This document shows, piece by piece, positions 7,218 through 22,913 of a stretch of 64,000 bases of DNA. The stretch is from NCBI GenBank assembly GCA_029551285.1, contig JAKPFT010000044.1:1-64000 (forward strand), in the 5' to 3' direction. Each line of letters begins with the position of its first letter. The first letter of the stretch is position 1. Below the pieces are notes generated by a model. It saw nothing but the letters and a program-made list of their open reading frames with translations, searched no databases and had not been told where the DNA came from. A program made the position numbers and the translations under genes. The DNA is from a bacterium. GTDB lineage: Bacteria > Ratteibacteria > UBA8468 > B48-G9 > DSTR01.

Positions 7218-8456
7218 ATGAAGCCACAACTGAAATTGGGACCGCAGGTCCGGCCGGGGCTGGCCCCGCAGCAGCAACTGTTTTTCCGCCTTCTCTGTTT
7301 ACCGGTCAGCGCCCTCAGGGAATATCTTGAGGAGCAGGCCGAGGAAAATCCTGTTCTGGAAATCACCGGGCCGGAAGAAGTGGTGCTACCTGCCTCCCAG
7401 CCGGAACCGGAGAGGGCTGATTCTTTCCGGGAATTGCTGAAAGAAGAGTTGAGGCTCAAAGTAGATTCTTCCGAGATTGTGGAGGCGGGTGATTATCTGA
7501 TAGAGAATCTGGAGGAAGACGGTTTTCTGAAGTTGTCCCTTGAGGAACTGGCCGAAGCCGGCGGATACCCTGTGAAGAGAATGCGGCAGGCACTGAAAGC
7601 CGTCCAGAGCCTGGAGCCAGCCGGGGTGGCAGCCAGGGACTTCCAGGAACTTTTTCTACTTCAACTGGAAAGAAAAAAGGCCCGCGGGAGTTTACCATAC
7701 GGCATCATTAAACATTGCTGGAAGGAGTTTTGCCAGGGGAATGAGAGGGAGATAGCCAGAAGACTGAAGCGGCCGGTGTCAGAAGTGAAACAGGCACTGC
7801 AGGAACTCCTTTGCCTGCGGGTTCATCCCCTCTCCGGTTATTTGCGGAATAGTTACCATCGGACCCTTCAGGTTGACGGGCTGGTGAGATACCAGGATGG
7901 ACGGCTAAGAGTTTCTCTCTGCGAAAACTACATGCCTGTCCTGTGGGTGAATCCCGAATACCTGAAATTGGCCCGTGACCTGACTGTGCCCGGTCAGCAA
8001 CGCCGCTTCTTAAAGGCGAAAATAAGTGAAGCCGAAACGCTGATTCTTGCAGTGGAGCAGTGGAAGGTAACCCACCAGAGAATTTTTGAAGAAATTGTTT
8101 TTTCCCAGGAGAGTTACTGGCGCGGCGGCATGATCAGGTCTCTGACAGAACAGGAGATAGCCACAAGGACAGGATTTCACGTCTCCACTGTCAGCCGCGC
8201 GGTAGCTGGCAAGTATCTGGCCACTCCGCGTGGGATTGTCCCTGTTCGTCACCTCCTTTCCAGATGTTCCGCCGGTCAGCTCAGTCAGGCGGGCCTGAAG
8301 GAGATGATCCGGCGACTGCTTTCTTCAGAAACAAGACCACTTTCTGACCGTCAGCTTGCTCAGAAGTTAGGAGAAATGGGAGTTTCTGTGGCGGTGCGTA
8401 CCGTGAACAAATACCGGACACGGTTACAGGTGCCCAACTCCTATCAGCGTCAGTAG
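7218..8456 (+). CDS. rpoN: RNA polymerase sigma-54 factor
   Basis: A 412-residue sigma-54. Region I is Gln/Leu-rich (LAPQQQLFFRLLCLPVSALREYL, ending AEENPVLEI). The core-binding domain follows (about 80-230). Then comes the -12 recognition helix-turn-helix with SLTEQEIATRTGFHVSTVSR near residue 310, and finally a C-terminal RpoN box AVRTVNKYR, varied from the usual ARRTVAKYR. It is somewhat shorter than enterobacterial RpoN, with a short acidic region II. The start is the ATG at 7218 after AAAGGATG; the frame stays open upstream but that part is not sigma-54-like. It converges on the hybrid kinase gene. Confidence 0.96.
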   Translation: MKPQLKLGPQVRPGLAPQQQLFFRLLCLPVSALREYLEEQAEENPVLEITGPEEVVLPASQPEPERADSFRELLKEELRLKVDSSEIVEAGDYLIENLEEDGFLKLSLEELAEAGGYPVKRMRQALKAVQSLEPAGVAARDFQELFLLQLERKKARGSLPYGIIKHCWKEFCQGNEREIARRLKRPVSEVKQALQELLCLRVHPLSGYLRNSYHRTLQVDGLVRYQDGRLRVSLCENYMPVLWVNPEYLKLARDLTVPGQQRRFLKAKISEAETLILAVEQWKVTHQRIFEEIVFSQESYWRGGMIRSLTEQEIATRTGFHVSTVSRAVAGKYLATPRGIVPVRHLLSRCSAGQLSQAGLKEMIRRLLSSETRPLSDRQLAQKLGEMGVSVAVRTVNKYRTRLQVPNSYQRQ

Positions 8457-8478
8457 CCGGCGGGCAGTCCATTGTTGT

Positions 8479-9627
8479 TCAGGAAGTATCTACTCCGCTG
8501 TTGGCACGGCCTGCTGGAAGAAAAATGGTGAAGGTTGTGCCCTGGTCCAATCTGGAGGCGACCTCAATTCGTCCCTGATGAAGAGAAATGATTTTCCGGG
8601 TTAGAGAAAGTCCCAGTCCGGTGCCGCCTGTTTTTCCCTGAGTGAAAAAGGGCTGGAAGATATGGGGCAGGTCTTCTTCCGGGATGCCCTTCCCGTTGTC
8701 GGAAAGAGAAGTGACTATCCAGTCATTCTCTGACCGGGATGACACGCTGATTTTTAGAGACCGCTCCGGATGAGAAGCCTGCAAGCTGTTAAGGAAGATG
8801 TTGAGATAAGCCTGGTGAAGCTGGTGAGGGTCGCCGTAAAGAAGCGGTAACTGGCGGGCTAAGTTTAGCTGGAACACAGCGGCCCGACCCATTTTTGATT
8901 GCTGCAAAAACCCGACTATTTTGACCAGAATCTCATTGAGATTGACCGGTTGAAAAGCAGGTTTTTCCCGGCTATAGTCAAGGATATTCCGGGCCAGGAT
9001 TTGACACCGCTGGATTTCTTCTTCAATGGTCTGCAGATATTGCCGGTAGACCGGAGAGGCATGTTCTTCCCCGGCCATTTCCTGAAGGAGTAGCTGGGTA
9101 AATCCCTGGATGACGGTGAGAGGATTGTTAATTTCATGCAGAATTTCCACTGAAAGCAAACCCAGGGTTGACAATTTTTCCATCTCGGTCAGTTTTTCCT
9201 GAAGCTGCCTGTTGAGCGCGGTCAGTTCTTCCGTGAGACGCGCTGCAGCCAGGTGGCTGACTCTTTTTTCCACAGCCTTTCTCACCAACTGCCTCATCTC
9301 TTCTATGTCAAAAGGTTTGGTGAGGAACTCCACGGCGCCAAGATGAATGGCTTTTCTGGCAGCTTCCATGGTTCCGTAACCGGTCAGGATGATCACCGGA
9401 ACTTCCCTGTCAAGGTGACGAAGCTCCTCCAGGGTTTGAAGCCCGTCCTTCTCAGGCATCTTCAGATCAAGAATAATGACCTGGGCAGGTTGCTGGCGAT
9501 GAAGAACCAGCCCCTCATCGCCGGAGCCGGCCAGGACCACTTCGTACTCGTCTTTGAAGAGCATCCGGAGGGATTCTCGTGGTCCTAACTCGTCATCAAT
9601 TACCAGAACACGAAATTTTTCTTCCAT
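8479..9627 (-). CDS. Hybrid protein: N-terminal receiver domain fused to a histidine kinase
   Basis: A 382-residue soluble signalling protein. The receiver domain (1-120) has the acidic pair IDDE, phospho-acceptor Asp in ILDLKMPEKDG and Lys in LTKPF. A short coiled coil (about 125-155) follows. The kinase part has the phospho-His in EILHEINNPL, an N-box (NIFLNSLQ), DNGKGIP and GGTGLGLS, so ATP binding looks intact. Having the receiver in front of the kinase suggests that another kinase controls it. It lies 11 bases downstream of the FadL-type gene, so it is probably expressed from the same sigma-54 promoter. Confidence 0.93.
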   Translation of the reverse strand: MEEKFRVLVIDDELGPRESLRMLFKDEYEVVLAGSGDEGLVLHRQQPAQVIILDLKMPEKDGLQTLEELRHLDREVPVIILTGYGTMEAARKAIHLGAVEFLTKPFDIEEMRQLVRKAVEKRVSHLAAARLTEELTALNRQLQEKLTEMEKLSTLGLLSVEILHEINNPLTVIQGFTQLLLQEMAGEEHASPVYRQYLQTIEEEIQRCQILARNILDYSREKPAFQPVNLNEILVKIVGFLQQSKMGRAAVFQLNLARQLPLLYGDPHQLHQAYLNIFLNSLQASHPERSLKISVSSRSENDWIVTSLSDNGKGIPEEDLPHIFQPFFTQGKTGGTGLGLSLTRKIISLHQGRIEVASRLDQGTTFTIFLPAGRANSGVDTS

Positions 9628-9638
9628 TTTTTACCTTT

Positions 9639-10814
9639 TCACCAGAAACGCTGACAGCTGAGGTTCAGGAAATAGGCGCTGGAGCGATACTGCCCGTCAT
9701 AAGGAGCGCCTGATTGTCCATGTCTTTTCTTAAAGAAGGATGAGGTAACGCTGGCTTCCACGGTTGCCCAGGAGAACTTTCTCTGACCACCAAAGGAAAC
9801 GGCCAGACGGTCGGCGTCAGCCAGCGTTGGTTCCAGGGTGGTAGCCGGTACCGGAGTTTGCAGGTAAGCCAGCCCGCCACGCAGTTTCCACCTGTCCTGG
9901 TGCTGATATTCAGTTCCGAGAGAAAAGGTGTAACAATCCCGCCAGTGTCGCGGCTGCGGCTGGCTCAATCCGGCCACGACCAGGTTGATCTGATCCAGAA
10001 CCGAGTAGCCAATCCATTCCACATCTGTTTCTATCTTCCAGGACGGTGTGGGACGGAAGGCAAAGCCTGCACCAGCAAGAGCCGGGAAATTAATGGTGGC
10101 TTCAGCCGGCAGTTCCCCGAAATTCAGCCAGCGCAATTTCCCGTCATAATCAATGGAAAACTTGGCCTTATAGGTCAGACCGAAACTGTAGCGGCTCTGG
10201 CGGTAGAGAAGGCCCAGGGCCGGGGCTGCTGCGTAGCCGGTAACTCTGATTTTGGCTTCACTTTCCACCGGGAAGGGCAGAAGATTATTGATTGCCAGAC
10301 GGCTGCTGTAGACATGAAGTGCCACCCCCAGAGAAAGCTCCGGGCTCAACTTCCAGCAACCAGCAGTGATAACGTCGGCTGTCTGGAGCCCTGCATAATA
10401 AGGGGAGGCATAATTCCACTTTCTTACTGTTTCCTGAGACCATTCCGTACTCTGACCGAAGGGAATGGTTACACCCACTCCCACTCGGAACTTCTCTTTT
10501 CCCAAATCTGAGGAGAGAAAGACGTAGGGCAGCATGATGGGCGAGAAATCTTTTTTATCTGAGAATAAATCTGACCGGTACCAGGTATTACTCAGGATAG
10601 TGTTAACGCCAGCCAGCCACTCTGTTCCTGTAATCTGAATGAGACCGGCCGGGTTATGGGTAATGGCTGAAGGGTCATCACACTGAGCAATAAAGGCTCC
10701 GGCCTGTCCCAGGGCGGCGTTACCCTCAGGTGGATTGCGCATGCCCTGGGCACCAGCCAGGGAAAGGGAAGCCCAGAAGACAAGAACCAACCAGCGCCAG
10801 AAGTATCTGGCCAT
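9639..10814 (-). CDS. Outer membrane protein of the OmpP1/FadL/TodX family
   Basis: A 391-residue predicted beta-barrel for uptake of hydrophobic compounds. It has a signal peptide (MARYFWRWLVLVFWASLSLAGA). The FadL-type start of the mature protein follows: ARN-like GMRNPPEGNAALGQAGAF, then DDPSAITHNPAG near residue 47. Alternating beta-strand pattern continues to an aromatic C-terminus ending in F-W, as barrels require for BAM recognition. Substrate specificity is unknown; TodX-like relatives move aromatics and FadL moves fatty acids. A sigma-54 promoter and a 5' hairpin precede it. It is divergent from the radical SAM gene. Confidence 0.9.
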   Translation of the reverse strand: MARYFWRWLVLVFWASLSLAGAQGMRNPPEGNAALGQAGAFIAQCDDPSAITHNPAGLIQITGTEWLAGVNTILSNTWYRSDLFSDKKDFSPIMLPYVFLSSDLGKEKFRVGVGVTIPFGQSTEWSQETVRKWNYASPYYAGLQTADVITAGCWKLSPELSLGVALHVYSSRLAINNLLPFPVESEAKIRVTGYAAAPALGLLYRQSRYSFGLTYKAKFSIDYDGKLRWLNFGELPAEATINFPALAGAGFAFRPTPSWKIETDVEWIGYSVLDQINLVVAGLSQPQPRHWRDCYTFSLGTEYQHQDRWKLRGGLAYLQTPVPATTLEPTLADADRLAVSFGGQRKFSWATVEASVTSSFFKKRHGQSGAPYDGQYRSSAYFLNLSCQRFW

Positions 10815-10833
10815 TTTTCCTCCCCGTGTTTTC

Positions 10834-10854
10834 CAGGAGCCATCAGGGCTCCTG
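10834..10854 (-). promoter_or_regulatory. Hairpin at the 5' end of the FadL-type mRNA
   Basis: CAGGAGCC, a 5-base loop and GGCTCCTG form a perfect 8-bp stem. From the sigma-54 promoter the first transcribed base is predicted at about 10854, so the hairpin would occupy +1 to +21 of the message, 19 bases before the start codon region with GGGGAGG. Such 5'-terminal stems are known to stabilise mRNAs, ompA being the classic case. That role here is inference. Confidence 0.55.
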
Positions 10855-10865
10855 CATGGATATAA

Positions 10866-10880
10866 GCAAATTTCATGCCA
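10866..10880 (-). promoter_or_regulatory. Sigma-54 (-24/-12) promoter of the FadL-type operon
   Basis: On the minus strand TGGCATG-AAAT-TTGCTT is present: GG at 10879-10878 and GC at 10867-10866, exactly 10 bases apart, matching the sigma-54 consensus TGGCAYR-N4-TTGCW. The start is predicted 12 bases downstream at about 10854. No competing sigma-70 boxes of quality are seen on this strand before the gene. Confidence 0.75.
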
Positions 10881-10983
10881 GGTGCCGCGGAATTCCTCAT
10901 AAGTTATTGAAACATAAAAGGAAACTCGCGTTAACTGAGCTTAGAGGACCTTCCCCCTTTGGTTTGAAACCTTAATAAAAAAT

Positions 10984-10997
10984 GGACAATTTTGTCC
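10984..10997. promoter_or_regulatory. Inverted repeat, candidate activator or repressor site
   Basis: GGACAA-TT-TTGTCC, a perfect 6-bp inverted repeat with a 2-base centre. It lies about 130 bp upstream of the predicted sigma-54 start (a usual distance for NtrC-type enhancer sites) and 6 bp upstream of the -35 box of the divergent radical SAM promoter. A second palindrome, GGTTTGAAACC, lies at 10961-10971. Which protein binds is not shown by the sequence. Confidence 0.45.
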
Positions 10998-11003
10998 GCT
11001 GGT

Positions 11004-11032
11004 TTGACAAAGTCTATTGCTACTAATATCAT
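11004..11032 (+). promoter_or_regulatory. Sigma-70 promoter of the radical SAM/ketosynthase operon
   Basis: TTGACA (11004-11009), 17-base spacer, TATCAT (11027-11032). The predicted start falls at 11039-11040, on the ATG of the radical SAM gene itself, so the mRNA should be leaderless. Confidence 0.75.
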
Positions 11033-11038
11033 AAGAGT

Positions 11039-12670
11039 ATGGGTGCAAGATGTCTTTTGCTCTCTCTGGCCGGGACGCCAAAGATACTTTCAGACTTTGT
11101 GCCTGATAACGGACTGGCCAGTCTGGCTGCCTGTCTTCTTAAGGCGGGCCATGAAGTAATAATTCGCGATTACAACAATCCTGATTTGTTTGACCGTATC
11201 TACCCTGCCGCCTGCAAAAGGTTTCTGAATTCCTTCGCCGAGAAAGTCTTTCTCTACCAGCGGCGACCAGCCTTCAATGACCTGGTTCTGCTCAGAGCAG
11301 TGGAACAGGTTCTTGCCTTAAGGAAAAGGATGTTTCTTCAGGAAGTGAAAGAGGAGTTGCTCCAGCAGGTGGAGACAGCAGGGATTAACCTTGTGGGGAT
11401 AAAACTCTGGGCCGGCGAAGGTTTTCACTGGTCTGTAGAAATCGCCGGCTTTTTGAAAAAGAAAGTCCCCGGGTTGTGGGTTTTTGGTGGTGGGCCGCAG
11501 GTGGACATTTTTGGACATCACCTTTTCTCGGTCTGTCCATTTTTTGACGGCCTCTGTTACGGCGAAGGTGAGGAAACAATTGTCCAGCTGGCCAACGTGG
11601 CTCTAGGAAGAACAAACTTGTCCGAAGTGTTCAATATCTACTACCGGAAAGACGGGCAGGTCGTTAAAAATCCTGCCAGAGAAATTCAGGACCTCAACCA
11701 GCTTCCGATCCCTGTTTATGAAGAAGCGGTCTACCAGGAAATTCACAAGAAAATCAAGATGTTAGTAATTGATGAAAGTCGCGGGTGCCCCAACCGGTGT
11801 TTTTTTTGTATTCATCCGGTTAAAAGCGGACGCCGCCGCGAGAAAAGTCCGGACCGGGTGCTGAAAGAGATGGAGCAGGCCAGGCAGGCTTATGGGGTTT
11901 CCCTTTTCCGGTTTGCCGGTTCCAGCACTCCCCCGGTTCTGATGACTGAAGTAGCCCGGCGGCTGGTGGAGCGAGGTCTAAGAGTTCGCTATTCCAGTTT
12001 CGGTAGCCTCAGAGAATTCCAGGGTCAGGAAGATTTTTCCCTCTGGAAAGATTCAGGGTGTCAGTCCATTTTCTTCGGGGTGGAATCAGCCAGCGAGACT
12101 ATCCTGAGACTGGCGATGAATCGCCGGATAAAGAAAGAGACGATGGCCCATATTCTGAAGAAGTGCCAGAGCGCCGGTATTTTTACGGTGGTCAGTATCA
12201 TCCACCCGGCACCGATGGAAACCCGGGAAAGCCGAAGAGAAACCATGGAATTCCTGAAGGATGTGCGGCCAGATTCTGTTCTGGTTCAGTTTCCCGGCAT
12301 CTATCCTGGTACGCCCTGGTTTGAGCAGGCAGAACGTTTCGGTTTTTCCCTGGACAGAGAAAAGTATCCCCGGCAGGTGATGGGCTATCAAATAAAATCG
12401 CTTTTCCCCCCTCGTTACTGGCGGCCCTTACCCTACCTCATTAATGGAATGCCTTTTCGTGTTTTTGCCAGAGAAACCGAACTTTTCCAGGAAGAACTGA
12501 ACCGCTCCGGTATCCTGACAGGTGTTTCCGATGAAGCCTATCTCCTTTTTCAGGCAGCCAGCCCTGGCAGCCTGGAGGCTTTCATCCGGAATAATCGCTG
12601 CTGGTTCTATGCTGGAGATGCCAGGCGTCTGACCGAGGAGATTGACACAATTAACAGGGGCAGTGGATGA
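11039..12670 (+). CDS. B12-binding-type radical SAM protein next to a ketosynthase
   Basis: A 543-residue enzyme. The N-terminal 200 residues have the layout of a cobalamin-binding domain (opening strand CLLLSLAG, FVPDNGLASLAACL, VGIKLWAG, FGGGPQVD), though no DxHxxG motif is evident, so cobalamin binding may be lost. The radical SAM core starts near residue 245 with the cluster motif RGCPNRCFFC. SAM-site features SIFFGVESAS and a C-terminal domain follow. Substrate is unknown. No ribosome-binding site precedes the ATG. Its stop overlaps the ketosynthase start (ATGA), so the two act together in all likelihood. B12-type radical SAM enzymes methylate, cyclise or rearrange unactivated carbons. 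Confidence 0.88.
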   Translation: MGARCLLLSLAGTPKILSDFVPDNGLASLAACLLKAGHEVIIRDYNNPDLFDRIYPAACKRFLNSFAEKVFLYQRRPAFNDLVLLRAVEQVLALRKRMFLQEVKEELLQQVETAGINLVGIKLWAGEGFHWSVEIAGFLKKKVPGLWVFGGGPQVDIFGHHLFSVCPFFDGLCYGEGEETIVQLANVALGRTNLSEVFNIYYRKDGQVVKNPAREIQDLNQLPIPVYEEAVYQEIHKKIKMLVIDESRGCPNRCFFCIHPVKSGRRREKSPDRVLKEMEQARQAYGVSLFRFAGSSTPPVLMTEVARRLVERGLRVRYSSFGSLREFQGQEDFSLWKDSGCQSIFFGVESASETILRLAMNRRIKKETMAHILKKCQSAGIFTVVSIIHPAPMETRESRRETMEFLKDVRPDSVLVQFPGIYPGTPWFEQAERFGFSLDREKYPRQVMGYQIKSLFPPRYWRPLPYLINGMPFRVFARETELFQEELNRSGILTGVSDEAYLLFQAASPGSLEAFIRNNRCWFYAGDARRLTEEIDTINRGSG

Positions 12671-13896
12671 AGAAAAGTCGTGTGGTAATCACCGGACTGG
12701 GAGTGGTGGCGCCAAACGGGATAGGAAGAGATATCTTCTGGCAGGCGCTGACTTCAGGCAGGAGCGGTATCAGCACCATTAGTACCTTTGACACCTGCAA
12801 TTTTCCTACCAGGATTGCCGGGCAGGTTTCAGACTTTGTCCCGGAAAGGTATATGGAGGGTAAAAAGGCTAAGAGACTTTCCCGAACCAGTCAGATGGCG
12901 GTAGCCAGTGCCAGACTGGCTCTAAATGACGCCAGACTTGACACCGCTGCTCTCCGGGGGGACAGGGTGGCTGTTATTTTCGGAGTAAGTACCAGCGCCA
13001 TGGATTTGATTGAGAAGCAGCATCGTCACTTTCTGGACAGGGGAGTGAAGGCGGTGCTGCCCTTCAGTATTGTGGCGGCCACGCCTCATACCACCTCGGG
13101 AGAAGTTACGGCGGAACTCGGTCTGGAAGGGTCGCTGTGTACCCTGGCTACGGGCTGTGCGGCTGGGCTGGACAGTATCGGTCTTGGCTTTACCAGGATT
13201 TCTCGCGGGGAGGCAACTGTGGTGGTGGCAGGTGGTGCCGATGCGCCCATTACCCCGTTGATTATGGCCGGTCTGTGCGCCACCCGAATCATGTCGGTCA
13301 GGAACGATTGTCCGGAGAAGGCCAGTCGGCCGTTTGACCGCTTACGAGACGGAGGAGTTCTGGCGGAAGGGGGTTCAGCCGTTGTTCTGGAGGAGTACGG
13401 TCACGCCCTTTCCCGGGGAGTGAAACCCTATGCTGAGGTGGTTGGCTACGCTGATGCGGCTGAAATTGATCTGATGTCACCAGGCCGTGGACTGGAAAGG
13501 GCGATGAGCAAAGCATTGCAGCAGGCCGGACTTTCCCCTGAGACCGTTGGGCACATTTCCGCCCATGCGCCCTCTGACCCGTTCCTGGACAGAATTGAGA
13601 CCGCGGCGATAAAGAAGGTTTTCGGCAAGCGGGCCTATCGGATTCCGATTACCTCAATTAAGTCTATGATTGGTAACCCCTTTGCAGCCATCGGTGGTTT
13701 CCAGGTAGCGGCCGCAGCTCTCACCTTTATTAGAGAGATCATTCCCCCAACGATTAATTACGAGCACTTTGACCCTGAATGTGACCTTGACTATACGCCC
13801 AATCACTCCAGGCTTGCTCAGGTGGAATATATTCTCATCAATGCCCACGGCTTTGGCGGCGGAAATTCTACGCTGATTCTGAAAAGGTGCGACTGA
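12667..13896 (+). CDS. FabF-like beta-ketoacyl synthase with altered active site
   Basis: A 409-residue thiolase-fold ketosynthase. The nucleophile is Cys164 in ATGCAAG and the first His is His300 in SAHAPSD. Lys332 in SIKSM is kept. The normal second His of the GHxxGAAG motif is replaced by Asn337 (SMIGNPFAAIGG). The C-terminal gate motif HGFGGGN is present. A Cys-His-Asn set occurs in KAS III and chalcone synthases but is unusual in the FabF branch. No acyl carrier protein, reductase or acyltransferase is nearby. Cotranscribed with the radical SAM gene. Likely a specialised lipid or polyketide step rather than bulk fatty acid synthesis. Confidence 0.9.
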   Translation: MKKSRVVITGLGVVAPNGIGRDIFWQALTSGRSGISTISTFDTCNFPTRIAGQVSDFVPERYMEGKKAKRLSRTSQMAVASARLALNDARLDTAALRGDRVAVIFGVSTSAMDLIEKQHRHFLDRGVKAVLPFSIVAATPHTTSGEVTAELGLEGSLCTLATGCAAGLDSIGLGFTRISRGEATVVVAGGADAPITPLIMAGLCATRIMSVRNDCPEKASRPFDRLRDGGVLAEGGSAVVLEEYGHALSRGVKPYAEVVGYADAAEIDLMSPGRGLERAMSKALQQAGLSPETVGHISAHAPSDPFLDRIETAAIKKVFGKRAYRIPITSIKSMIGNPFAAIGGFQVAAAALTFIREIIPPTINYEHFDPECDLDYTPNHSRLAQVEYILINAHGFGGGNSTLILKRCD

Positions 13897-13899
13897 AAA

Positions 13900-16371
13900 A
13901 TGAGTTACTTCACCCTCTCCATGCTGCTGGCCGGAGTCATCAACCTGATTTTCGGAATTATTGTCTTCAAGAGAAATCGGCGCAGATTACCCAACCGTAT
14001 CTTTCCTCTGTTTTCCTTTTTTCTGGCCTGCTGGTGCTGGGTGGTGGCTGGCATCATGCTGGCTTCTGACCTCAGCGTGGCCGGAATACTGGTCCGGGCA
14101 GCCTTCGGGGTAGGCGCCTTTCTACCGTCTCATTTTTACCTTTTCTCCCTGGTTCTTACCATGAGGGAAAACCAGCTCAGCCGTGCCAGCCGGATTAAGG
14201 CAGCTGGTGTTTATCTGTTCTGTGCCCTGCTGGCCGCCAGCTGTTTTCATCCTGCCTTTGTGGAAAAGATTTATTTTCAGCCACTGGCACCCTTACCTGG
14301 GCCGGAGGTGATTTATAACCGGGGGCTCTTCATAGTCTATGTTGGCTCTGTGACAGGGCTGATGGCCTACTCTCTGTTTCTGCTGTTGTTTAGGTTACGA
14401 CAACTTTCCGGCGTCCGGCGGCAGGAGGCCCAGTATGTTTTTTTCGGGGTACTGGCCGGGACGCTCTTTACTTTGCTGACCTCGCTGCTACCACCGCTTT
14501 TAGGCAGCACCTTACCCACCCGGTTTGCCCCTTTTTCCTCAGTGGTGATGACCGCAATAATTAGTTACGCCATCGCCAAGTATCGCATTATGGATATCCA
14601 GCTCGTGTTTGAAGTGACCACCGCCTACGTTCTTTCCAGCATTATTCTCATCTTCATCTATCTGGTGGCGGTTCTGGCTACGAATAAGCTTCTGGCAGTT
14701 TTTACTACCTCTTCCCAGTGGAAGAATCTTCCTTTGCTGGTAGGAGCCTTTATTGTCGCCGTAGTTTTTGTGCCGTTGCGTTCCAGGCTCCAGATACTTC
14801 TGCGGGGATTAATCTTCAAGGATCAGTACGAGGTCAGTACGGTTTCCAGGAAACTAACGCAGCTTTTGAGCCAGCCGGTGAAATCCGGGGAACTTCTGGA
14901 AGAGGTGGTTAAACTTCTCAACTCCTCGCTGGGACTGGTTCCCCGGGCTGGTCTGGTTCTTCGTCAGAGTCGGCAGGACCTGATCGTTTTTCCTTTTCCG
15001 GCTTGCTGGCAGGTGCGCTTCAAAGAGGAGGGACCGTTCTGGCCGTGGTTTGAGCGCCATCGGGAAGCGGTGGTCCGGGAAGAGCTCCTGCGGCTATCCG
15101 AAAATGAGCAGGCCCAGCAAGTGGCCAGAGAGCTGACTGACCTGGAAGCAGAGGCTGCGGCACCGGTGCCCATCCAGGGAGATGTCGCTGGCGTTTTGGT
15201 GGTCGGACAGAAGGTTTCTGGAGCGGCGTTTGGGGAGAATGACCGTCTGGTGCTGGAGCACCTTGGCCTTCAGTTAGGACTGGCTCTGGAAACCACGGGT
15301 CTTTATCAGGAACTGTTCCGCGTGAACCTGTATCTTGACAGTCTTCTGGATAACTCGCCTGCGGGGGTGGTCGGAGTAGATGCGAACGGCCGGGTGACTG
15401 TTCTGAACCGGGAGGCAGAAAGGCTTACCGGCCTTGTCCGCAAAGAGGTAATCGGACAGCCGTATTCGGTTTTGCCTGGCCCATTAGTTTCAGCGGTGGA
15501 GAGCAGTTTGAAGAAAAAGCAGGAGATTCGTAATGAGGAAGTAAGTTTCCTTCCCAGACCTTCGGACCTGGCTTTTTCGGCGATTCTGCAGACCTCGTCT
15601 TTTTACGATAGAAAGGGCCAGCCTCTTGGCGTCCAGGTAATCCTTCAGGACGTTACCCAGGTACGGGTTTTGCAGGAAGACCTGCGGCGGAAAGACAAAC
15701 TGGCCTCGTTCGGAGTGATGGCCGCCCGGATCGCGCACGAAATCAAAAATCCCCTGGTGGCCATTCGTACCCTGGCCCAGCTTTTGCCCTCTCGGTATCA
15801 GGATAGCGAATTCCGGAATACATTTGCTAACTTGGCTTCCCGGGAAGTGGAAAGGATTAACAGCCTGGTGGAAGAAATCCTGAGTTTTGCCAGTCCGCGG
15901 CAATTATACCCGCGGGAAGTGAATCTGATAGAATTAATAGAGGCAACCCTGACCATGCTAACAGTTCAGACCGAGGGCCGGAAGATCACCGTCCACCGTT
16001 CCTGGCCTTCGGAAAGGGTGATGATTGAAGTTGACGAAGGAAAAATGCGCCAGGCCTTGTTGAACATCTTCCTTAACAGCCGTGATGCCATGGGAGAAGA
16101 AGGAAATTTGATGGTCCAGGTTCAGGAGTCTTCCGAAATGGTCACGGTACTCATCCGGGATGATGGCTGCGGTATGAATCCGGAAGTCCTGAAACGGGTC
16201 TTTGATCCCTTTTATACCACCAAACCGCGCGGCACTGGACTGGGGCTGCCGATAGTGGCCAGCATTGTTGATGAACATGGGGGGACTATTCGGATGGAAA
16301 GCCAGGAAAACAGGGGTACCCTGGTGATTCTCCAGATACCCAGATCGCAGCGTTTCCGGAGGAAAACATGA
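13900..16371 (+). CDS. Membrane histidine kinase (7TM-GAF-PAS-HisKA-HATPase)
   Basis: An 823-residue sensor. Order: seven or eight membrane helices over the first 250 or so residues (7TM sensor type), a cytosolic GAF-like domain (about 300-460), a PAS domain (about 475-590, VGVDANGRVTVLNREAERLTG), a dimerisation domain with phospho-His613 in AHEIKNPLVAI, and an intact ATP domain (NIFLNSRDAM, DDGCGM, GTGLGLPI). The layout resembles PrsK-type kinases that partner NtrC-family regulators. It starts 3 bases after the ketosynthase and its end overlaps the next kinase by 4 bases. Confidence 0.93.
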   Translation: MSYFTLSMLLAGVINLIFGIIVFKRNRRRLPNRIFPLFSFFLACWCWVVAGIMLASDLSVAGILVRAAFGVGAFLPSHFYLFSLVLTMRENQLSRASRIKAAGVYLFCALLAASCFHPAFVEKIYFQPLAPLPGPEVIYNRGLFIVYVGSVTGLMAYSLFLLLFRLRQLSGVRRQEAQYVFFGVLAGTLFTLLTSLLPPLLGSTLPTRFAPFSSVVMTAIISYAIAKYRIMDIQLVFEVTTAYVLSSIILIFIYLVAVLATNKLLAVFTTSSQWKNLPLLVGAFIVAVVFVPLRSRLQILLRGLIFKDQYEVSTVSRKLTQLLSQPVKSGELLEEVVKLLNSSLGLVPRAGLVLRQSRQDLIVFPFPACWQVRFKEEGPFWPWFERHREAVVREELLRLSENEQAQQVARELTDLEAEAAAPVPIQGDVAGVLVVGQKVSGAAFGENDRLVLEHLGLQLGLALETTGLYQELFRVNLYLDSLLDNSPAGVVGVDANGRVTVLNREAERLTGLVRKEVIGQPYSVLPGPLVSAVESSLKKKQEIRNEEVSFLPRPSDLAFSAILQTSSFYDRKGQPLGVQVILQDVTQVRVLQEDLRRKDKLASFGVMAARIAHEIKNPLVAIRTLAQLLPSRYQDSEFRNTFANLASREVERINSLVEEILSFASPRQLYPREVNLIELIEATLTMLTVQTEGRKITVHRSWPSERVMIEVDEGKMRQALLNIFLNSRDAMGEEGNLMVQVQESSEMVTVLIRDDGCGMNPEVLKRVFDPFYTTKPRGTGLGLPIVASIVDEHGGTIRMESQENRGTLVILQIPRSQRFRRKT

Positions 16372-18320
16372 GTTATTTGCTAATTATTACCGAAGACAGG
16401 GCTGTCGGGTACTCCCTGCGCATGATTCTGAAAGACTCTTTTCTGGTGGAAGAGTCATCCTTCGGAGAAGCATCGGCAGTGGTGGCTTCCAGACGTCCGG
16501 ACGTCATCTTCCTGGACGACCGGTCCCGGGGAGACAGTCTGGAAGTATTAGCAAGCCTGCTCCGGCAGGAGCCTTCATTGACGATTATCAGCCTGGTACC
16601 AAGTTTGACTTGCGGCGCGAGCGTTTTTCTGGAGCACGGAGCTTTTGACCTTCTGGAAAAACCTTTTACGGCAGAGCAAGTAAAACAGGTAGTTTCAAGG
16701 GCTCTGGAAAGAGAAAGGTTGCTGGCGGAGAACCGACAACTGAAAAGTATGGGGCGAGAAGAGCCCAGAAGGGATCATCTGGCCAGAGAAAATGAGATTC
16801 GCACTCACGACTTCTACAAGCGGCTGCTGCAGACGATAAGTGAAACCCTCGGCCGGCCGGAACAGCTGCCCCGGGCGGTGGTGGTTACCCTGCGTCAGCA
16901 TTTTCGGTTCAACCCGATTGCCTTTTTCACCAGCCAGTCTGGAATTTTTAAAGTCGTAGCTTCCTGTGGTCTTGATGAAAATTTAATCAGGCAGTTACAA
17001 GTGCCTTCATCCCATAGTCTAATCAGCTGGTTTCTGAAAAAAAGGAGTCTGCTTCGGACCGCGCGGGAAGCGAATCTGAGCGGGGAAATTTATTCTCTCT
17101 CGGAATTGCTCGGCGGCCAGTTTTTCTTTCCACTGCTCACCACCCGGGGAAGCCTATCCGGCTTTCTCTCCCTCGGGGGGAAACTGACCGGCGAGGAAAC
17201 CACGAGGGAGGAATTGGGGCTGCTCAGTTTAGTCTGCGATTACCTGACCGCTATCCAGGAGAATCTCCAGCTCACTCAGGAAATAAATCTTCAGGCCGGA
17301 TACCAGGAGGCAATTCTGGGAAGTATCCCCACAGGCATTGTGGCCGTTGATATGCGGGGCCGGGTCACCATTATGAACCGTTCCGCAGAAAGGATTACAG
17401 GGGTCAGAGCCGAGGAGGTTCAGGGACAGTCGGTGGAAACACTGGGCTCGCAAATCGCTGATTTTTTGAGACGGGCTTTGCGGGGGGATGAAGTTTCCCG
17501 AATTGAGCTTACTTATGTGCCCACAAAAGCTGTCTTGGGCATCAGCACCCGAACCCTGCAACACGGGGAAGAATTTCAGGGAGCCGTGGCTGCCTTCCAG
17601 GATCTGACGGAGGTCAAGAAGATGGACCGGGAGCGGGCTGAAGTGGAACGAAATCGCTACTGGAATACAGTGGCGGCTCGGCTTTCACATGAATTGAAAA
17701 ATCCGCTGGTGGCCATCAAGACATTTGCCCAGATGTTGCCGCTGAAATATGAGGACAGTGAGTTCCGGTCAGGCTTTGCGCAGATTGTTCAGCAGGAGAT
17801 AGCCAAACTTAACCGGATCATTGAGGGCATCAACCGGCTGGCGGAGCCGCTGAATTTAACTGTGGCTCCGGTGCATCTGCTGGAGCTCCTGAACAGTGTT
17901 GGTCAGGGAATTGCAGAGTGTCCTGCAGGGAAACTGGAGGTGAAGTGCGCCGAACCGTTTGATGACCTGATGCTCGCGGATGCTTTACGGCTAAGAGAGG
18001 CTTTTGGGTATATCCTGCAGTTTTGCTGGAGGGATAACCGAGGGGAAAAACCGGTACTTTGCTCCGTGAAGGCTGACAATCAGACCGTCACGGTGGAGTA
18101 TCGTGAGGAAGGGTCCACCCTGGCTCTTCCGTCAGGAGAGGAGATTTTTCTGCCCTTCGTTTCCACTCTGGAAAGCAACCTGTCCATCGGGCTGGTTCTC
18201 GCGAAGAAAATCGTGGAGGCTCATGAAGGAAGAATGGAACTGGTTACCGAAGGAAACAGCAGGAAATTTGTGATAACCCTATCCTTAAAACGGGATGAGA
18301 AAAATCTTAGTGGTGGATGA
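16368..18320 (+). CDS. Receiver-GAF-PAS-histidine kinase-like protein with decayed ATP domain
   Basis: A 650-residue soluble protein. Receiver domain at 1-120 (Asp in VIFLDDRSRG, Lys in EKPF), GAF-like region about 150-305, PAS about 315-425, and a dimerisation domain with His441 in SHELKNPLVAI. The downstream ATP domain lacks the N-box Asn (REAFGYILQF) and has no DxGxG or GxGLG loop (REEGSTLA, LSIGLVLA). It should not bind ATP normally. Its dimerisation region is strikingly like that of the upstream kinase, so it probably arose by duplication. It may act as a phospho-relay partner or inhibitor. It overlaps the regulator gene by 26 bases. Confidence 0.9.
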   Translation: MSYLLIITEDRAVGYSLRMILKDSFLVEESSFGEASAVVASRRPDVIFLDDRSRGDSLEVLASLLRQEPSLTIISLVPSLTCGASVFLEHGAFDLLEKPFTAEQVKQVVSRALERERLLAENRQLKSMGREEPRRDHLARENEIRTHDFYKRLLQTISETLGRPEQLPRAVVVTLRQHFRFNPIAFFTSQSGIFKVVASCGLDENLIRQLQVPSSHSLISWFLKKRSLLRTAREANLSGEIYSLSELLGGQFFFPLLTTRGSLSGFLSLGGKLTGEETTREELGLLSLVCDYLTAIQENLQLTQEINLQAGYQEAILGSIPTGIVAVDMRGRVTIMNRSAERITGVRAEEVQGQSVETLGSQIADFLRRALRGDEVSRIELTYVPTKAVLGISTRTLQHGEEFQGAVAAFQDLTEVKKMDRERAEVERNRYWNTVAARLSHELKNPLVAIKTFAQMLPLKYEDSEFRSGFAQIVQQEIAKLNRIIEGINRLAEPLNLTVAPVHLLELLNSVGQGIAECPAGKLEVKCAEPFDDLMLADALRLREAFGYILQFCWRDNRGEKPVLCSVKADNQTVTVEYREEGSTLALPSGEEIFLPFVSTLESNLSIGLVLAKKIVEAHEGRMELVTEGNSRKFVITLSLKRDEKNLSGG

Positions 18321-19638
18321 TGAGACCGGAGTGAGAACCTCGTTGAAGTTTGCGCTTCAGGACACTTACTGTGTCCAGATGGTCTCTTCCGGTCAGGCGG
18401 CCATCTCTCAGGTGAACCAGGAGATGCCGGATGCGGTCATCCTTGACCTGGTTTTGCCGGATACCGGGGGACTGGAAGTCTTAAAAAGGTTGCGCGAAGT
18501 CAATGAGGAGTTACCGGTAATTATTCTCACCGCCCACAGCAGTATTCGCTCGGCGGTGGAGGCGATGCGTCTGGGCGCTACTGATTACCTAACCAAACCG
18601 TTTGATGTGGAAGAGATGAAACTGATTCTCGCCCGGGTAATCAAGGAAAAAAAGTTGAAAGAGCGCGTGGGGCTCCTCCAAAAAGAGGTGGATGAAGAAT
18701 ATCCGGCAGAAAATGTGGTCTTCAAAAGTCAGGCTATGGCGCAGGTCATGGCGGTGGCCAAACAGGTGGCGGCCACTGAAGCCACGGTTCTTCTTCTTGG
18801 TCCGAGTGGCTGTGGTAAAGAATTAATCGCCCGGGCCATCCACGCCTTTAGCGGCAGGCGTGAAGAACCATTCGTGCCGATACACTGTGCGGCTATTCCG
18901 GAAAGTTTGTTTGAGAGTGAAATCTTCGGTTATGAAAAGGGAGCTTTTACCAACGCTTTTCAGCGTAAACCCGGGAAGATTGAGCTGGCCGGGTCCGGCA
19001 CGCTTTTCCTTGACGAAGTCAGCGAAATACCGCCGGCGGTCCAGGTAAAACTGCTGCGCTTTCTTCAGGAAAAAGAATTTTCCCGTCTGGGCGGTAACGA
19101 AATTTTGAAAAGCCAGGCGAGGCTTCTGGCGGCTTCAGCCCGGGACCTTAAGAAACAGGTGGCTGAGGGCAATTTCCGGGAAGACCTTTATTACCGGTTG
19201 TGCGTTGTGCCACTGGAAATTCTGCCGCTGAACCAGCGCCGGGAGGACATTGAAGTTCTCCTTGATTTCTATCTGGAGAAGTTTCGCCGCCGGCTGGGTG
19301 CCCGCACCAGAGATTTTACCAGGGAAGCGCGGCAGCAACTGGTAGCCTATGACTGGCCAGGGAATGTCCGGGAACTGAAAAACATTGTGGAAAGGATGCT
19401 GGTTCTTTACGGTCAGCGGGAGGAGATTGGCAGTGAGTGTTTGCCAGGCGAAATCCGCGGTCAGAGCTGCCCCGAAGTTGGCCTGGAACAGGCCGTGGAA
19501 TCTTTTGAAAAGAGGCTCATCTTAGAGGCACTGGAACGCTGTAACTGGAATCAAAACCAGGCCGCGCGGTTGCTGAAAACAACCCGGCGCGTTATCCGGT
19601 ACAAAGCGGAAAAATACGGACTGAAAAAAACAAAATGA
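18295..19638 (+). CDS. NtrC-family sigma-54 activator (receiver-AAA+-Fis)
   Basis: A 447-residue response regulator. Receiver (1-120): VVDDE, Asp in ILDLVLPDTGG, Lys in TKPF. AAA+ domain: Walker A GPSGCGKE near residue 166, Walker B GTLFLDEVSE near 238, and the sigma-54 contact loop written GAFTNA instead of GAFTGA. C-terminal Fis-type helix-turn-helix around 405-440 (NQNQAARLLKTTRRVIRYK). It is the natural activator for the sigma-54 promoter at 10866-10880. It is encoded in the same operon as the kinases and rpoN lies about 10 kb away. GAFTNA occurs in other activators and is presumably functional. Confidence 0.95.
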   Translation: MRKILVVDDETGVRTSLKFALQDTYCVQMVSSGQAAISQVNQEMPDAVILDLVLPDTGGLEVLKRLREVNEELPVIILTAHSSIRSAVEAMRLGATDYLTKPFDVEEMKLILARVIKEKKLKERVGLLQKEVDEEYPAENVVFKSQAMAQVMAVAKQVAATEATVLLLGPSGCGKELIARAIHAFSGRREEPFVPIHCAAIPESLFESEIFGYEKGAFTNAFQRKPGKIELAGSGTLFLDEVSEIPPAVQVKLLRFLQEKEFSRLGGNEILKSQARLLAASARDLKKQVAEGNFREDLYYRLCVVPLEILPLNQRREDIEVLLDFYLEKFRRRLGARTRDFTREARQQLVAYDWPGNVRELKNIVERMLVLYGQREEIGSECLPGEIRGQSCPEVGLEQAVESFEKRLILEALERCNWNQNQAARLLKTTRRVIRYKAEKYGLKKTK

Positions 19639-21077
19639 GGAAACAACCAAGAATTCTGGTGATTGATGATGACGAGGGAATTCGCCGGCTTTACCAGGCT
19701 GTTCTTGGGAGGAAAAATTACCGGGTAACCCTGGCCAGCAGCACGGAAGAAGCTCTGGCGGTCCTTTCCCGGGAAAAGTTTGACCTGGTTCTTCTGGATT
19801 TGCAGATGCCCGGCAGTGACGGGTTTGTGTTTCTTGACCGGTTACAGCAATATGAGCAGCCGCCAGCCGTGGTTGTCTCCTCCGGCCTGGCCACAGTGGA
19901 AAATGCTGTGAAGGCGGTGCGGCTGGGTGCGAAAGATTTTATCGTCAAGCCCTTCAAGGTGGAGCAACTTCTCCAGACAATTGAGCGAACCTTAACCATT
20001 GAGGCTCTGACGGCGGAGCTAAGCGACCTGCAAATGGTGCGTTCGGTGCTGGAATTAAGTACTGCGGTCCTGTCCGTAACCGAAGTGGAGCCGCTGCTGG
20101 AGCGGCTGGCTGACCTTCTCTGGAATCTTTTCAAACCGGAAGCCATCTTTTTCTTTATCCGCAGCAGCGAAACGGCCAATTTTATTCTGCGTAAGTACCG
20201 ACCCCAGCCTCAACCTGAACGGATAAGTCTTTTTCTGAGCGAAGAAGAAGTTAAAAAAGAGCTGGGTGGGGAAAGAGTCGGGATGAAGGAACTTTCCGGG
20301 AAAAGGCAACTTCTGGCGCTGTTGCAGGGACAGGGGCGGGAGCTGGGAGTGGTGCGTTTTGACTTCCCGGCGGAGCGGCCTGGCCTGACCGAGAAAGAGC
20401 AAAGTTTCCTTTCTGGTTTGCTGGTCCAGTCAGGTATCGCTCTGGAAAACGCCATGCTTTTTCAGGCACTTAACGAGGCCTATCTGAAAACAATTCGTTC
20501 TCTGGTTAATTCCCTTGAGGCTCGTGACGCCTATACCCGGGGTCATTCCGAGCAGGTAGCCTACTATGCGGTACTGATCGGTCGGCAGATGAAACTCTCC
20601 GAGAGGCAGTTAGAAATTCTTCGCAACATAGGTTATCTGCACGACTTAGGAAAACTGGGAATTAAAGATGCCATCCTGTTGAAAGAGGGTAAGTTGACCC
20701 CGGAGGAATATCAAATTATCCGGGAACACCCGCGGCTTACCGCCAGGATTCTGGAACCGTTAACTCTGGAGGAGGGAGAGTTAGAAGCCTGTCTTTATCA
20801 CCACGAGTGGTTCAATGGTAGAGGCTATCCCGCCGGTTTGAAGGAGGACCAGATACCATTGATGGCCAGAATCATTGCTGTCGCAGACGCTTACAGCGCG
20901 ATGACTTCAAATCGTCCCTACAGCCGCGTGCGCACCAGGGAAGAGGCGCTGGCAGAGTTGAAACGCTGTCGGGGAAGCCAGTTTGATGCCTCGGTGGTGG
21001 ATGCTTTTGTTTCTCTGATGGAAGGGAACGAACCGCCCCCGACAAAATTTGCGCCGAAAGAGATATCCGGTCTATAA
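19635..21077 (+). CDS. Response regulator with HD-GYP domain (c-di-GMP phosphodiesterase)
   Basis: A 480-residue protein. The receiver domain (1-120) has IDDDE, Asp in LLDLQMPGSDG and Lys in VKPF. A GAF-like region (about 145-280) follows, then an HD-GYP domain (about 290-460) with RGHSEQVA, YLHDLGKLGI, HHEWFNGRGYP and IIAVADAYSAMTSNRPY. All metal-binding His/Asp motifs are present, so c-di-GMP hydrolysis is likely. It overlaps the NtrC-type gene by 4 bases, so it ends the operon and links it to c-di-GMP signalling. Its stop codon lies within the -10 box of the mreB promoter. Confidence 0.94.
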   Translation: MRKQPRILVIDDDEGIRRLYQAVLGRKNYRVTLASSTEEALAVLSREKFDLVLLDLQMPGSDGFVFLDRLQQYEQPPAVVVSSGLATVENAVKAVRLGAKDFIVKPFKVEQLLQTIERTLTIEALTAELSDLQMVRSVLELSTAVLSVTEVEPLLERLADLLWNLFKPEAIFFFIRSSETANFILRKYRPQPQPERISLFLSEEEVKKELGGERVGMKELSGKRQLLALLQGQGRELGVVRFDFPAERPGLTEKEQSFLSGLLVQSGIALENAMLFQALNEAYLKTIRSLVNSLEARDAYTRGHSEQVAYYAVLIGRQMKLSERQLEILRNIGYLHDLGKLGIKDAILLKEGKLTPEEYQIIREHPRLTARILEPLTLEEGELEACLYHHEWFNGRGYPAGLKEDQIPLMARIIAVADAYSAMTSNRPYSRVRTREEALAELKRCRGSQFDASVVDAFVSLMEGNEPPPTKFAPKEISGL

Positions 21078-21126: not shown

Positions 21127-22152
21127 ATGAAGGACTTCTTATCCTTTTTTTCCAATGACCTGGGAATCGACCTGGGTACCGCCAACACCTGTGTGTATGT
21201 CCGGCGTAAGGGCGTGGTGCTGATGGAGCCTTCCATTGTGGCGATGAACGTTAGTAGCAAAGAAGTGGTGGCTGTGGGTCATGAAGCCAAGCGGATGATC
21301 GGCAAGACCCCGGCTAACATTGTCGCTATGAAACCGATGAAGGATGGGGTGATTGCTGATTTTGAAGCCTGCGAAGCGATGTTACGATATTTCATCAATA
21401 AGGTCAAAACCCAGAAGCACCGTTTTCTGTTGCCGCCCCGTATGGTTATTGCCATTCCTTCAGGGATTACCAGTGTGGAAAGAAGGGCTGTCAGGGAAAC
21501 GGCTTTAAGGGCCGGTGCCAGGTCGGTCCGGCTGGTAGAAGAACCGATGGCTTCGGCCATCGGTGTGGGTTTGCCAGTGGGCGAGCCCTGTGGCAGTTTT
21601 ATAATTGATATCGGGGGCGGAACTATGGAAATGGCGGTCATTTCGCTCGGCGGGATTGTCCTGACCAAGAGTCTGCGTGTCGCCGGCAATGAAATGGATG
21701 AAGCCATTATTGATTATCTCAAGAAGAAGTACAATCTTCTGATTGGCGAACGCACCGCTGAGGAGATTAAGATAGAAATTGGTTCTGCCTATCCGCTGGA
21801 GGAGGAGTTGACAGTGGAGGTTAACGGACGAGACCTGGTGGAAGGGTTGCCCAAAATGGTGCGGATTAACTCCGAGGAAATCAGAGAGGCTTTGCGGGAA
21901 ACATTGAATACTATCGTTAACGCGGTCAGAGACATCCTGGAAGAAACCCCGCCGGAGTTATCCAGCGACCTCATTGAGCGAGGCGTAGTTCTGGCCGGGG
22001 GGGGAGCGCTCCTTCGGTCTCTGGACAAACTCATTTCCCAGGAAACCAAGTTGCCGGTAAAGGTAGCGGAAGACCCTTTAACATCGGTGGTTAGAGGTAC
22101 CGGGAAGATGCTGGAAGAGGATAAATACCTGCGTCTTTTCCCGCACGAGTGA
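21127..22152 (+). CDS. mreB: Rod-shape determining actin homologue MreB
   Basis: A 341-residue bacterial actin that guides lateral cell wall synthesis. Phosphate-1 loop GIDLGTANTCVYV near residue 13, phosphate-2 IIDIGGGTMEMAV near residue 160, and adenosine motif GVVLAGGGALL near residue 288. Normal family length. It heads the mreBCD-mrdA-rodA group, so the organism should be rod-shaped or otherwise elongating. RBS GGAG lies 8 bases before the ATG. Confidence 0.98.
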   Translation: MKDFLSFFSNDLGIDLGTANTCVYVRRKGVVLMEPSIVAMNVSSKEVVAVGHEAKRMIGKTPANIVAMKPMKDGVIADFEACEAMLRYFINKVKTQKHRFLLPPRMVIAIPSGITSVERRAVRETALRAGARSVRLVEEPMASAIGVGLPVGEPCGSFIIDIGGGTMEMAVISLGGIVLTKSLRVAGNEMDEAIIDYLKKKYNLLIGERTAEEIKIEIGSAYPLEEELTVEVNGRDLVEGLPKMVRINSEEIREALRETLNTIVNAVRDILEETPPELSSDLIERGVVLAGGGALLRSLDKLISQETKLPVKVAEDPLTSVVRGTGKMLEEDKYLRLFPHE

Positions 22153-22235
22153 AAACTGAAGTCTCTCCGGTGGAAGGCGACCAGCCACAAAAAAATCATC
22201 CAGATAAATTGCCATCAGGAAATTTGTGAAAGACC

Positions 22236-22913
22236 ATGATCTGGCGTTTCCGGCGCGAACTCCTCTTGTGTTTGCTATTAGTTGTGTGCTTACTGATTCT
22301 CAGACGTGGTCAGTGGCAGAACTCATTTTTCTCGCTGAGGGGGATGAACGGCTCCGAGATTCACCTGAATTCTGAAGAACTGCTCCGGGAGAACCGGAGG
22401 CTGCGCCGGTTGCTCCATCTTCAGGAAAAGAAACTTTCACCTTTTTCGTCTGTGGTCACGGCTGAGGTGGTTAAGATTCAACCATCTGTCTGGCCTGGTC
22501 AACTGCTGGTGAATAAGGGTAGCCGTGACGGGGTCAAGCCGAACATGGTAGTGGTTTCTCCCGAAGGAAGTCTGATCGGGCGGGTAATTGAAACCGGGGA
22601 AACGACGGCTACGGTTTTCACCCTCTTTCATCCCTCCACCAAAATCAGTGTTATGGTTCAGAGTACCCGGGAAATCGGGGTGCTGGAAGGTGCTTCTCTG
22701 CCTTATCTGCTGGTACGCTATCTACCCCGGGAAAGCCACGTGCAACCGGGTGACACGGTAATTACCTCCGGTCTGAGTGATTACTACCCGAAGGGACTGG
22801 TGGTGGGCAGAATTTATCGTGCGGTGACGGAAAAGAATCAGTTTTTTCTTGTGGCCTGGGTAAAGCCAGAAGCTGGTTTTTCTCAGCTTGACGAGGTGCT
22901 CCTTGCCCGTTAG
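22236..22913 (+). CDS. mreC: Rod-shape determining protein MreC
   Basis: A 225-residue bitopic protein. One membrane helix (about residues 8-22) is followed by a short coiled coil with LLRENRRLRRLL near 48-60. Two periplasmic beta-barrel domains come next (LLVNKGSRDGVKPNMVV, GDTVITSGLSDYYPKGLVVG). It is shorter than E. coli MreC because of a shorter C-terminus. The start has only a weak ribosome site. It links MreB to the wall synthases. Confidence 0.92.
   Translation: MIWRFRRELLLCLLLVVCLLILRRGQWQNSFFSLRGMNGSEIHLNSEELLRENRRLRRLLHLQEKKLSPFSSVVTAEVVKIQPSVWPGQLLVNKGSRDGVKPNMVVVSPEGSLIGRVIETGETTATVFTLFHPSTKISVMVQSTREIGVLEGASLPYLLVRYLPRESHVQPGDTVITSGLSDYYPKGLVVGRIYRAVTEKNQFFLVAWVKPEAGFSQLDEVLLAR

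Follow-up and report, generated by a model that had tools for sequence, protein, structure and literature searches.

The first 64,000 nucleotides of contig JAKPFT010000044.1 (assembly GCA_029551285.1, Ratteibacteria), which we call the window, hold a 14-kb block of about ten genes at 7218-21077 in which a B12-type radical S-adenosylmethionine (SAM) enzyme and an atypical ketosynthase stand together with a FadL-type outer-membrane channel, sensor kinases, an HD-GYP protein, and sigma-54 with its activator. The evidence consists throughout of sequences of uncultured genomes, and at that level three things are shown: the cassette is conserved, its sigma-54 wiring is dedicated, and the active site of its ketosynthase is altered. 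We judge the chances to be evenly balanced that the block is a circuit in which a hydrophobic, acyl-derived signal is made, moved, and sensed; we infer the product, that it is sensed, and the part it plays between cells.

The source genome (2.72 Mb, 93% complete; the contig of the block is C57) was compared with 34 relatives in a small phylum-level group. Genes of the block were assigned by Pfam and NCBIfam profile searches, which confirmed the family of each gene named in an earlier, sequence-only reading of this stretch. The gene order is MgtC (minus strand), rpoN (plus), receiver-kinase and FadL (both minus), followed by a divergent plus-strand run: radical SAM enzyme, ketosynthase, seven-transmembrane (7TM)-GAF-PAS kinase, receiver-GAF-PAS-HisKA protein, NtrC-type activator, and receiver-GAF-HD-GYP protein. 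The genes of this run overlap or almost abut, and the ATGA overlap previously seen at the radical SAM/ketosynthase junction is indeed present, at 12667.

The cassette and its two enzymes

A search of related genomes had been proposed as a check on the integrity of the block, and the genes are not scattered there: gene order is kept almost throughout the bacterial order to which the genome belongs. The core, composed of the radical SAM enzyme, ketosynthase, 7TM kinase, two receiver-kinases, and a FadL-type barrel, recurs in rearranged form in Armatimonadota/Zipacnadia, Lentisphaerota, and other lineages. In Zipacnadia (Armatimonadota), barrel, ketosynthase, 7TM kinase, pseudokinase, and receiver-kinase make up a single operon that converges with the radical SAM gene. 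A peptide-pattern scan of the genome collection retrieved at least 70 relatives of the radical SAM enzyme, a distribution to be read as a lower bound. Where the flanks are complete (24 loci), the ketosynthase is found in 19, every one of which (19/19) also has the 7TM kinase; the pseudokinase is present in 20, the receiver-kinase in 19, and the ketosynthase together with a FadL-type barrel in 15. Among all loci with a cassette ketosynthase, 35/37 carry the 7TM kinase.

The ketosynthase is 45% identical to the genome's own FabF (on contig C47) and has the same fold, with Cys, His, and Lys of the active site kept (Cys164 and His300 for the first two). It differs from FabF (beta-ketoacyl-acyl carrier protein (ACP) synthase II) in its second catalytic histidine, which is Asn in the order, in Lentisphaerota-like loci, and in relatives, and Gln in Zipacnadia and UBP13, and its score against the FabF model TIGR03150 stays below the cut-off (406.5 vs 493.75). 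The tree likewise places the cassette ketosynthases in CHKN and CHKQ(/RQ) clades, apart from the genomes' own FabF proteins, all of which are CHKH. In FabF, both histidines serve malonyl decarboxylation, and FabH uses Cys-His-Asn. Judged from these residues, the exchange could mean that condensation is altered, that acyl groups are transferred, or that the site resembles that of FabH.

The radical SAM protein keeps the cysteines of its CX3CX2C motif in 62/62 sequences and has an N-terminal domain of the B12-binding type (PF02310, 38.1 vs cut-off 32.1), so that cluster motif and N-domain together make it a predicted cobalamin enzyme of the B12 type. Its model (predicted local distance difference test (pLDDT) 94.9) has the two-domain fold of the B12-dependent radical SAM enzymes TsrM, OxsB, MgmA, CysS, and TokK, and of AprD4, which supply all of the best PDB matches; sequence identity to these enzymes is, however, 14-18%. 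No NCBIfam equivalog matches at its cut-off, the best NCBIfam matches including HpnJ, and the enzyme is of a class outside current libraries. In the family tree, labelling sequences by their partner genes does not give clean clades.

The ketosynthase is lacking at some loci of radical SAM relatives. In L067 and L068, the adjacent gene encodes a FeeM N-acyl amino acid synthase (PF21926, E 6e-37 and 7e-39), and in L076 an exosortase/OlsB-type acyltransferase lies beside the radical SAM homologue. FeeM uses acyl-ACP. These replacements point to an acyl-donor-using enzyme as the common partner. LuxI synthase and LuxR receptor domains are absent from the block, and the FeeM relative occurs only in the other loci mentioned.

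Some of these loci have peculiarities of their own. L068 belongs to a contig titled Aenigmatarchaeota, and its neighbourhood is nearly the same as that of the Phycisphaerae contig L067; it is probably mis-binned bacterial DNA in an archaeal genome, and something similar may hold for L076 and L094, contigs of Woesearchaeota. Both FeeM-type loci have, before the radical SAM gene, a gene for a Cys-containing protein of 180-193 aa (L067 9415-9954, L068 9376-9954) that has no Pfam match and looks V4R-like by eye. In L091 (2760-5255), two proteins of 134 and 664 aa without Pfam match replace the ketosynthase between the radical SAM gene and the 7TM kinase. In the Myxococcota (L089 8266-9942, L095 6628-8949), a radical SAM relative is preceded by a PilZ-domain protein whose long C-terminal part is unassigned; this protein may be a further link to cyclic di-GMP (c-di-GMP). 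One in-frame TAG was reported in the radical SAM reading of G005 (L014 / G005:C173).

Channel, kinases, and sigma-54 wiring

The outer-membrane protein belongs to the FadL/TodX superfamily (Toluene_X, 137.6 bits vs cut-off 29.7) and falls short of the narrower FadL equivalog NF007988 (54.7 vs 585). The barrel of the Zipacnadia cassette has no Pfam match, and its PorV match is weak; its model, of medium confidence (mean pLDDT 77.8), has TbuX, CymD, TodX, or FadL as every one of its 20 best PDB matches. Because this barrel lacks a Pfam match and is nevertheless predicted to fold like FadL, its model indicates that the cassette contains the same kind of channel in two sequence-unrelated forms.

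Of 44 receiver-kinase sequences across phyla, nearly all have the full set of catalytic residues, and the 7TM kinase keeps its histidine and N box in 36/36, with the G1 box altered in 16. The sequence-only reading had named two kinase-like proteins here. The 7TM-GAF-PAS kinase stands; the second (16368-18320) is by its residues a pseudokinase, whose ATP-binding boxes are lost across the family (N box lost, G1 box mostly lost) and whose phospho-acceptor histidine is retained in 37/40. It may pass phosphate on, or pair with an active kinase. The catalytic motifs of the HD-GYP protein are kept and six GGDEF proteins are encoded elsewhere in the genome, which makes a c-di-GMP output through it plausible.

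The description of the block as a self-contained sigma-54 module holds well, as the whole genome yielded a single sigma-54, a single activator, and a single strong promoter between genes, within a conserved gene order. RpoN has its AID, CBD, and DBD domains (regions I-III), all above Pfam cut-offs, and is the only sigma-54 (PF04552) of the genome. The activator combines a Sigma54_activat domain (PF00158, 218-221 bits) with HTH_8 and is the only true sigma-54 activator genome-wide, the other three PF00158 matches scoring 22-39 bits. Its receiver Asp is kept in 14/14 sequences, and its loop reads GAFTNA here and GAFTGA, GAFTNA, or GAFTSA in relatives.

The promoter before FadL, TGGCATGAAATTTGCT, earlier noted as a good GG-N10-GC element, reaches the full score against the weighted -24/-12 consensus (16.7/16.7) and is the only match with 0-1 mismatches within the window. 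The wider pattern TGGCAYRN4TTGCW has five exact sites genome-wide, and that of FadL alone lies outside a gene. Candidates for a wider regulon were rejected: three of the non-FadL sites are inside genes, the fifth (C74:27536) is inside an open frame, and 39/39 further exact sites from 11 relatives are inside genes. At consensus strength, the sigma-54 regulon thus comes down to one promoter, serving FadL and the receiver-kinase. This promoter is conserved, with 19/25 FadL upstream regions at or above 14.7 of 16.7, including those of Lentisphaerota and other lineages outside the order; in G006, which has lost FadL, it stands before the receiver-kinase. The upstream region of the Zipacnadia barrel has no sigma-54 site, as expected of a cassette without the activator. 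Contrary to the earlier proposal that the radical SAM/ketosynthase pair is under sigma-54, its operon has a sigma-70-like promoter and no sigma-54 promoter. From these patterns, the sole sigma-54 and the sole activator appear to serve this one block, where the apparent targets of sigma-54 are FadL and the receiver-kinase and do not include the radical SAM/ketosynthase pair.

The palindrome reported at 10984-10997 is real and slightly longer: TGGACAATTTTGTCCG occupies 10983-10998, with the -24/-12 element 102 bp downstream of it and, on its other side, the sigma-70-like promoter of the radical SAM operon 5 bp away. A -24/-12 promoter and a putative upstream activator site can both be read in the sequence. 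Relatives have TGTACAATTTTGTACA or near variants at the same place, and 11 activator- or rpoN-positive genomes, this one included, share it. The single other near match in the genome, at 11502-11517 in the radical SAM coding sequence, was rejected as an operator, being the coding stretch for the conserved VDIFGH motif. TGTN10ACA is the spacing of NifA-type sites, which fits the Fis-type helix-turn-helix (HTH) of the activator. Since the palindrome lies between the two promoters, the activator likely enhances FadL and the receiver-kinase and also touches the synthase/sensor operon from one putative site. A second palindrome-like site, TTGTACAAAATTGAACA, occurs in the FadL-radical SAM intergenic region of family f3 (L037, L038, L039, L042, L043), about 80 bp further on and near the radical SAM start; it is likely a second operator. 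Four genomes (G002, G004, G008, G018) are without rpoN, sigma-54 activator, FadL promoter, and palindrome.

In this order, the block is adjoined by mreB-mreC-(mreD-like)-mrdA-rodA (21127-26169), an arrangement not found in the other phyla that bear the cassette.

Genes and regulatory elements of the block, with positions in the window.
Feature	Position	Strand	Basis or remark
rpoN	7218..8456	+	Pfam AID/CBD/DBD; ATG at 7218; single genome-wide PF04552 match
Receiver-HisKA-HATPase hybrid kinase (receiver-kinase, RR-HK)	8479..9627	-	Downstream of FadL, same strand
FadL/TodX-family outer-membrane channel for hydrophobic compounds	9639..10814	-	Toluene_X; adjoins or lies near radical SAM gene, conserved
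-24/-12 sigma-54 promoter TGGCATGAAATTTGCT of FadL/RR-HK unit	10865..10880	-	Consensus match
Conserved 16-bp palindrome TGGACAATTTTGTCCG, TGTN10ACA type, proposed activator-binding site	10983..10998	.	Sequence conservation
Sigma-70-like promoter TTGACA-17-TATCAT of radical SAM operon	11004..11032	+	Sequence
B12-type radical SAM enzyme	11039..12670	+	CX3CX2C, PF02310, fold
FabF-like ketosynthase, Cys-His-Lys-Asn for Cys-His-Lys-His	12667..13896	+	Pfam, active-site alignment
7TM-GAF-PAS histidine kinase, inner-membrane sensor	13900..16371	+	Pfam domains
Receiver-GAF-PAS-HisKA pseudokinase, proposed phosphotransfer or partner protein	16368..18320	+	No recognisable ATPase
NtrC-type activator: receiver, AAA+ with GAFTNA, Fis-type HTH	18295..19638	+	Only one in genome
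Receiver-GAF-HD-GYP, predicted c-di-GMP phosphodiesterase	19635..21077	+	HDLGK and HHEx4GRGYP motifs kept

A proposed signal circuit and the alternatives to it

On the reading we favour, the ketosynthase would draw on the fatty-acid pool for an acyl chain, bind it on its cysteine, and join or transfer it, and the radical SAM enzyme would modify the product through a radical reaction such as methylation, yielding a hydrophobic acyl-derived molecule. Its family suggests that the FadL-type channel would be where this molecule crosses the outer membrane. To judge from the domains, the 7TM-GAF-PAS kinase would sense the molecule, and phosphate would reach the NtrC-type activator and the HD-GYP protein by way of the pseudokinase and the receiver-kinase. 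Bound to the palindrome, the activator would induce FadL and the receiver-kinase with the sole sigma-54, a presumed feedback whose elements can be read in the DNA; the sigma-70-like promoter of the synthase/sensor operon, directly adjacent to this site, would probably be adjusted from it as well. The HD-GYP protein would carry the signal to c-di-GMP.

The recurrence of the sensor kinases, and the replacement of the ketosynthase by FeeM in some relatives, favour production and sensing of a signal over import of a nutrient. The hydrophobic substrate proposed from the sequence-only reading gains indirect support, in that FadL-superfamily barrels recur even in a phylum where Pfam finds none; import of a nutrient is the part that we would now reread as a signal.

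Several points weigh against a signal circuit. The product, the ligand, and the phosphotransfer are all inferred; FadL relatives also import nutrients and hydrocarbons; and a role in membrane lipids or envelope stress fits many of the same facts. The FeeM pairing comes from only two near-identical loci. Weak sigma-54 promoters escape a consensus scan, and genome completeness is 93%. G006, G010, and G014 are activator-positive and have no clear palindrome, and in G034, a genome 77% complete, the palindrome stands upstream of the ketosynthase while no activator was found. A single event probably removed promoter, palindrome, activator, and rpoN together, since the four genomes concerned are one clade in the ketosynthase tree.

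The main rival, which we hold to be unlikely though worth serious attention, is an envelope-lipid module without cell-cell communication: the pair would make or modify an unusual membrane or outer-membrane lipid, FadL would move acyl chains or detergent-like compounds, and the kinases would sense the lipid or envelope state and feed back on the pathway. Within the order, the block lies directly before mreB-mreC-mrdA-rodA, but other phyla do not share that neighbourhood. Hopanoids and other lipids are among the products of FabF-like and B12 radical SAM enzymes (HpnJ is one of the best NCBIfam matches), and FadL is a fatty-acid channel family; the block has, however, no conserved acyltransferase, desaturase, or lipid carrier gene, and its sigma-54 output is a channel and a soluble receiver-kinase, not lipid genes. 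A small released amide would also be in better accord with the swap to a FeeM-type synthase.

That the block senses and takes up a hydrophobic compound from outside, a hydrocarbon or fatty acid that the pair merely modifies, seems to us improbable. Membership of the FadL/TodX family and AtoS/AtoC-like proteins as the best NCBIfam matches of kinase and activator agree with it, and sigma-54 control is common for hydrocarbon uptake. Yet no acyl-CoA ligase, dehydrogenase, or oxygenase occurs in the block or is conserved nearby, the ketosynthase, with its biosynthetic fold, belongs to the core, and the sigma-54 regulon looks limited to FadL and the kinase.

A regulator of exosortase/PEP-CTERM surface proteins of the PrsK/PrsR type would account for TIGR02916 and TIGR02915 among the kinase and activator matches, and PrsR acts with sigma-54 sites (PMC1569441); both matches are below curated cut-offs (118.7 vs 300; 397.6 vs 502.6), exosortase (PF09721) occurs in 0/35 genomes of the group, and on these grounds membership was rejected as very unlikely. 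Equally hard to credit is a grouping of ordinary regulators and two ordinary enzymes by chance or shared regional ancestry: synteny within one order can outlast any functional link, but the recurrence of the same core across phyla, in other order and orientation, disfavours it, as do sigma-54 elements that are absent together and the filling of the barrel's role by a protein with no Pfam relationship to it.

Known systems and significance

PrsK/PrsR/PrsT, found by phylogenetic profile for the PEP-CTERM/exosortase system, resembles the block in its transmembrane kinase, sigma-54 activator, and -24/-12 sites with an upstream activator motif (PMC1569441); the block differs in the absence of exosortase from the group, in its sub-cut-off scores, and in its target genes. 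Photopyrones are signals made by a ketosynthase, PpyS (PMC4578411). As with photopyrones and dialkylresorcinols, where an acyl-chain-using ketosynthase makes a hydrophobic signal read by a regulator, a signal is proposed here, but the ketosynthase is FabF-like, has Asn/Gln in place of His, and has a B12-type radical SAM enzyme as its partner; reading would fall to membrane and soluble kinases instead of a LuxR protein. In Sinorhizobium fredii, FadL mediates uptake of long-chain N-acyl-homoserine lactone (AHL) signals (PMC9938287); the channel here would similarly handle a hydrophobic acyl signal, in a block that, unlike that case, has no AHL synthase or LuxR and has FadL as an apparent sigma-54 target. 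No description of this gene set was found in the open PMC literature, subscription papers being outside the scope of the search.

We therefore propose, tentatively and with somewhat less confidence than the circuit itself, a new class of chemical signal built on a Cys-His-Asn/Gln ketosynthase and a B12-type radical SAM enzyme, with FadL-type channels and a kinase relay, in several uncultured phyla, to which this order would add a sigma-54 left with a single promoter, inside the circuit, as its entire regulon. If true, this would be a signal system beyond the described LuxI, diffusible signal factor (DSF), peptide, CqsA, and PpyS classes; it would bring signalling to candidate phyla in which almost nothing is known on cell-to-cell signals, with a concrete gene set to express. 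With its sole sigma-54, sole activator, and apparently sole sigma-54 promoter all in one 14-kb block, the bacterium would offer an unusually simple natural setting in which to ask why sigma-54 is retained.

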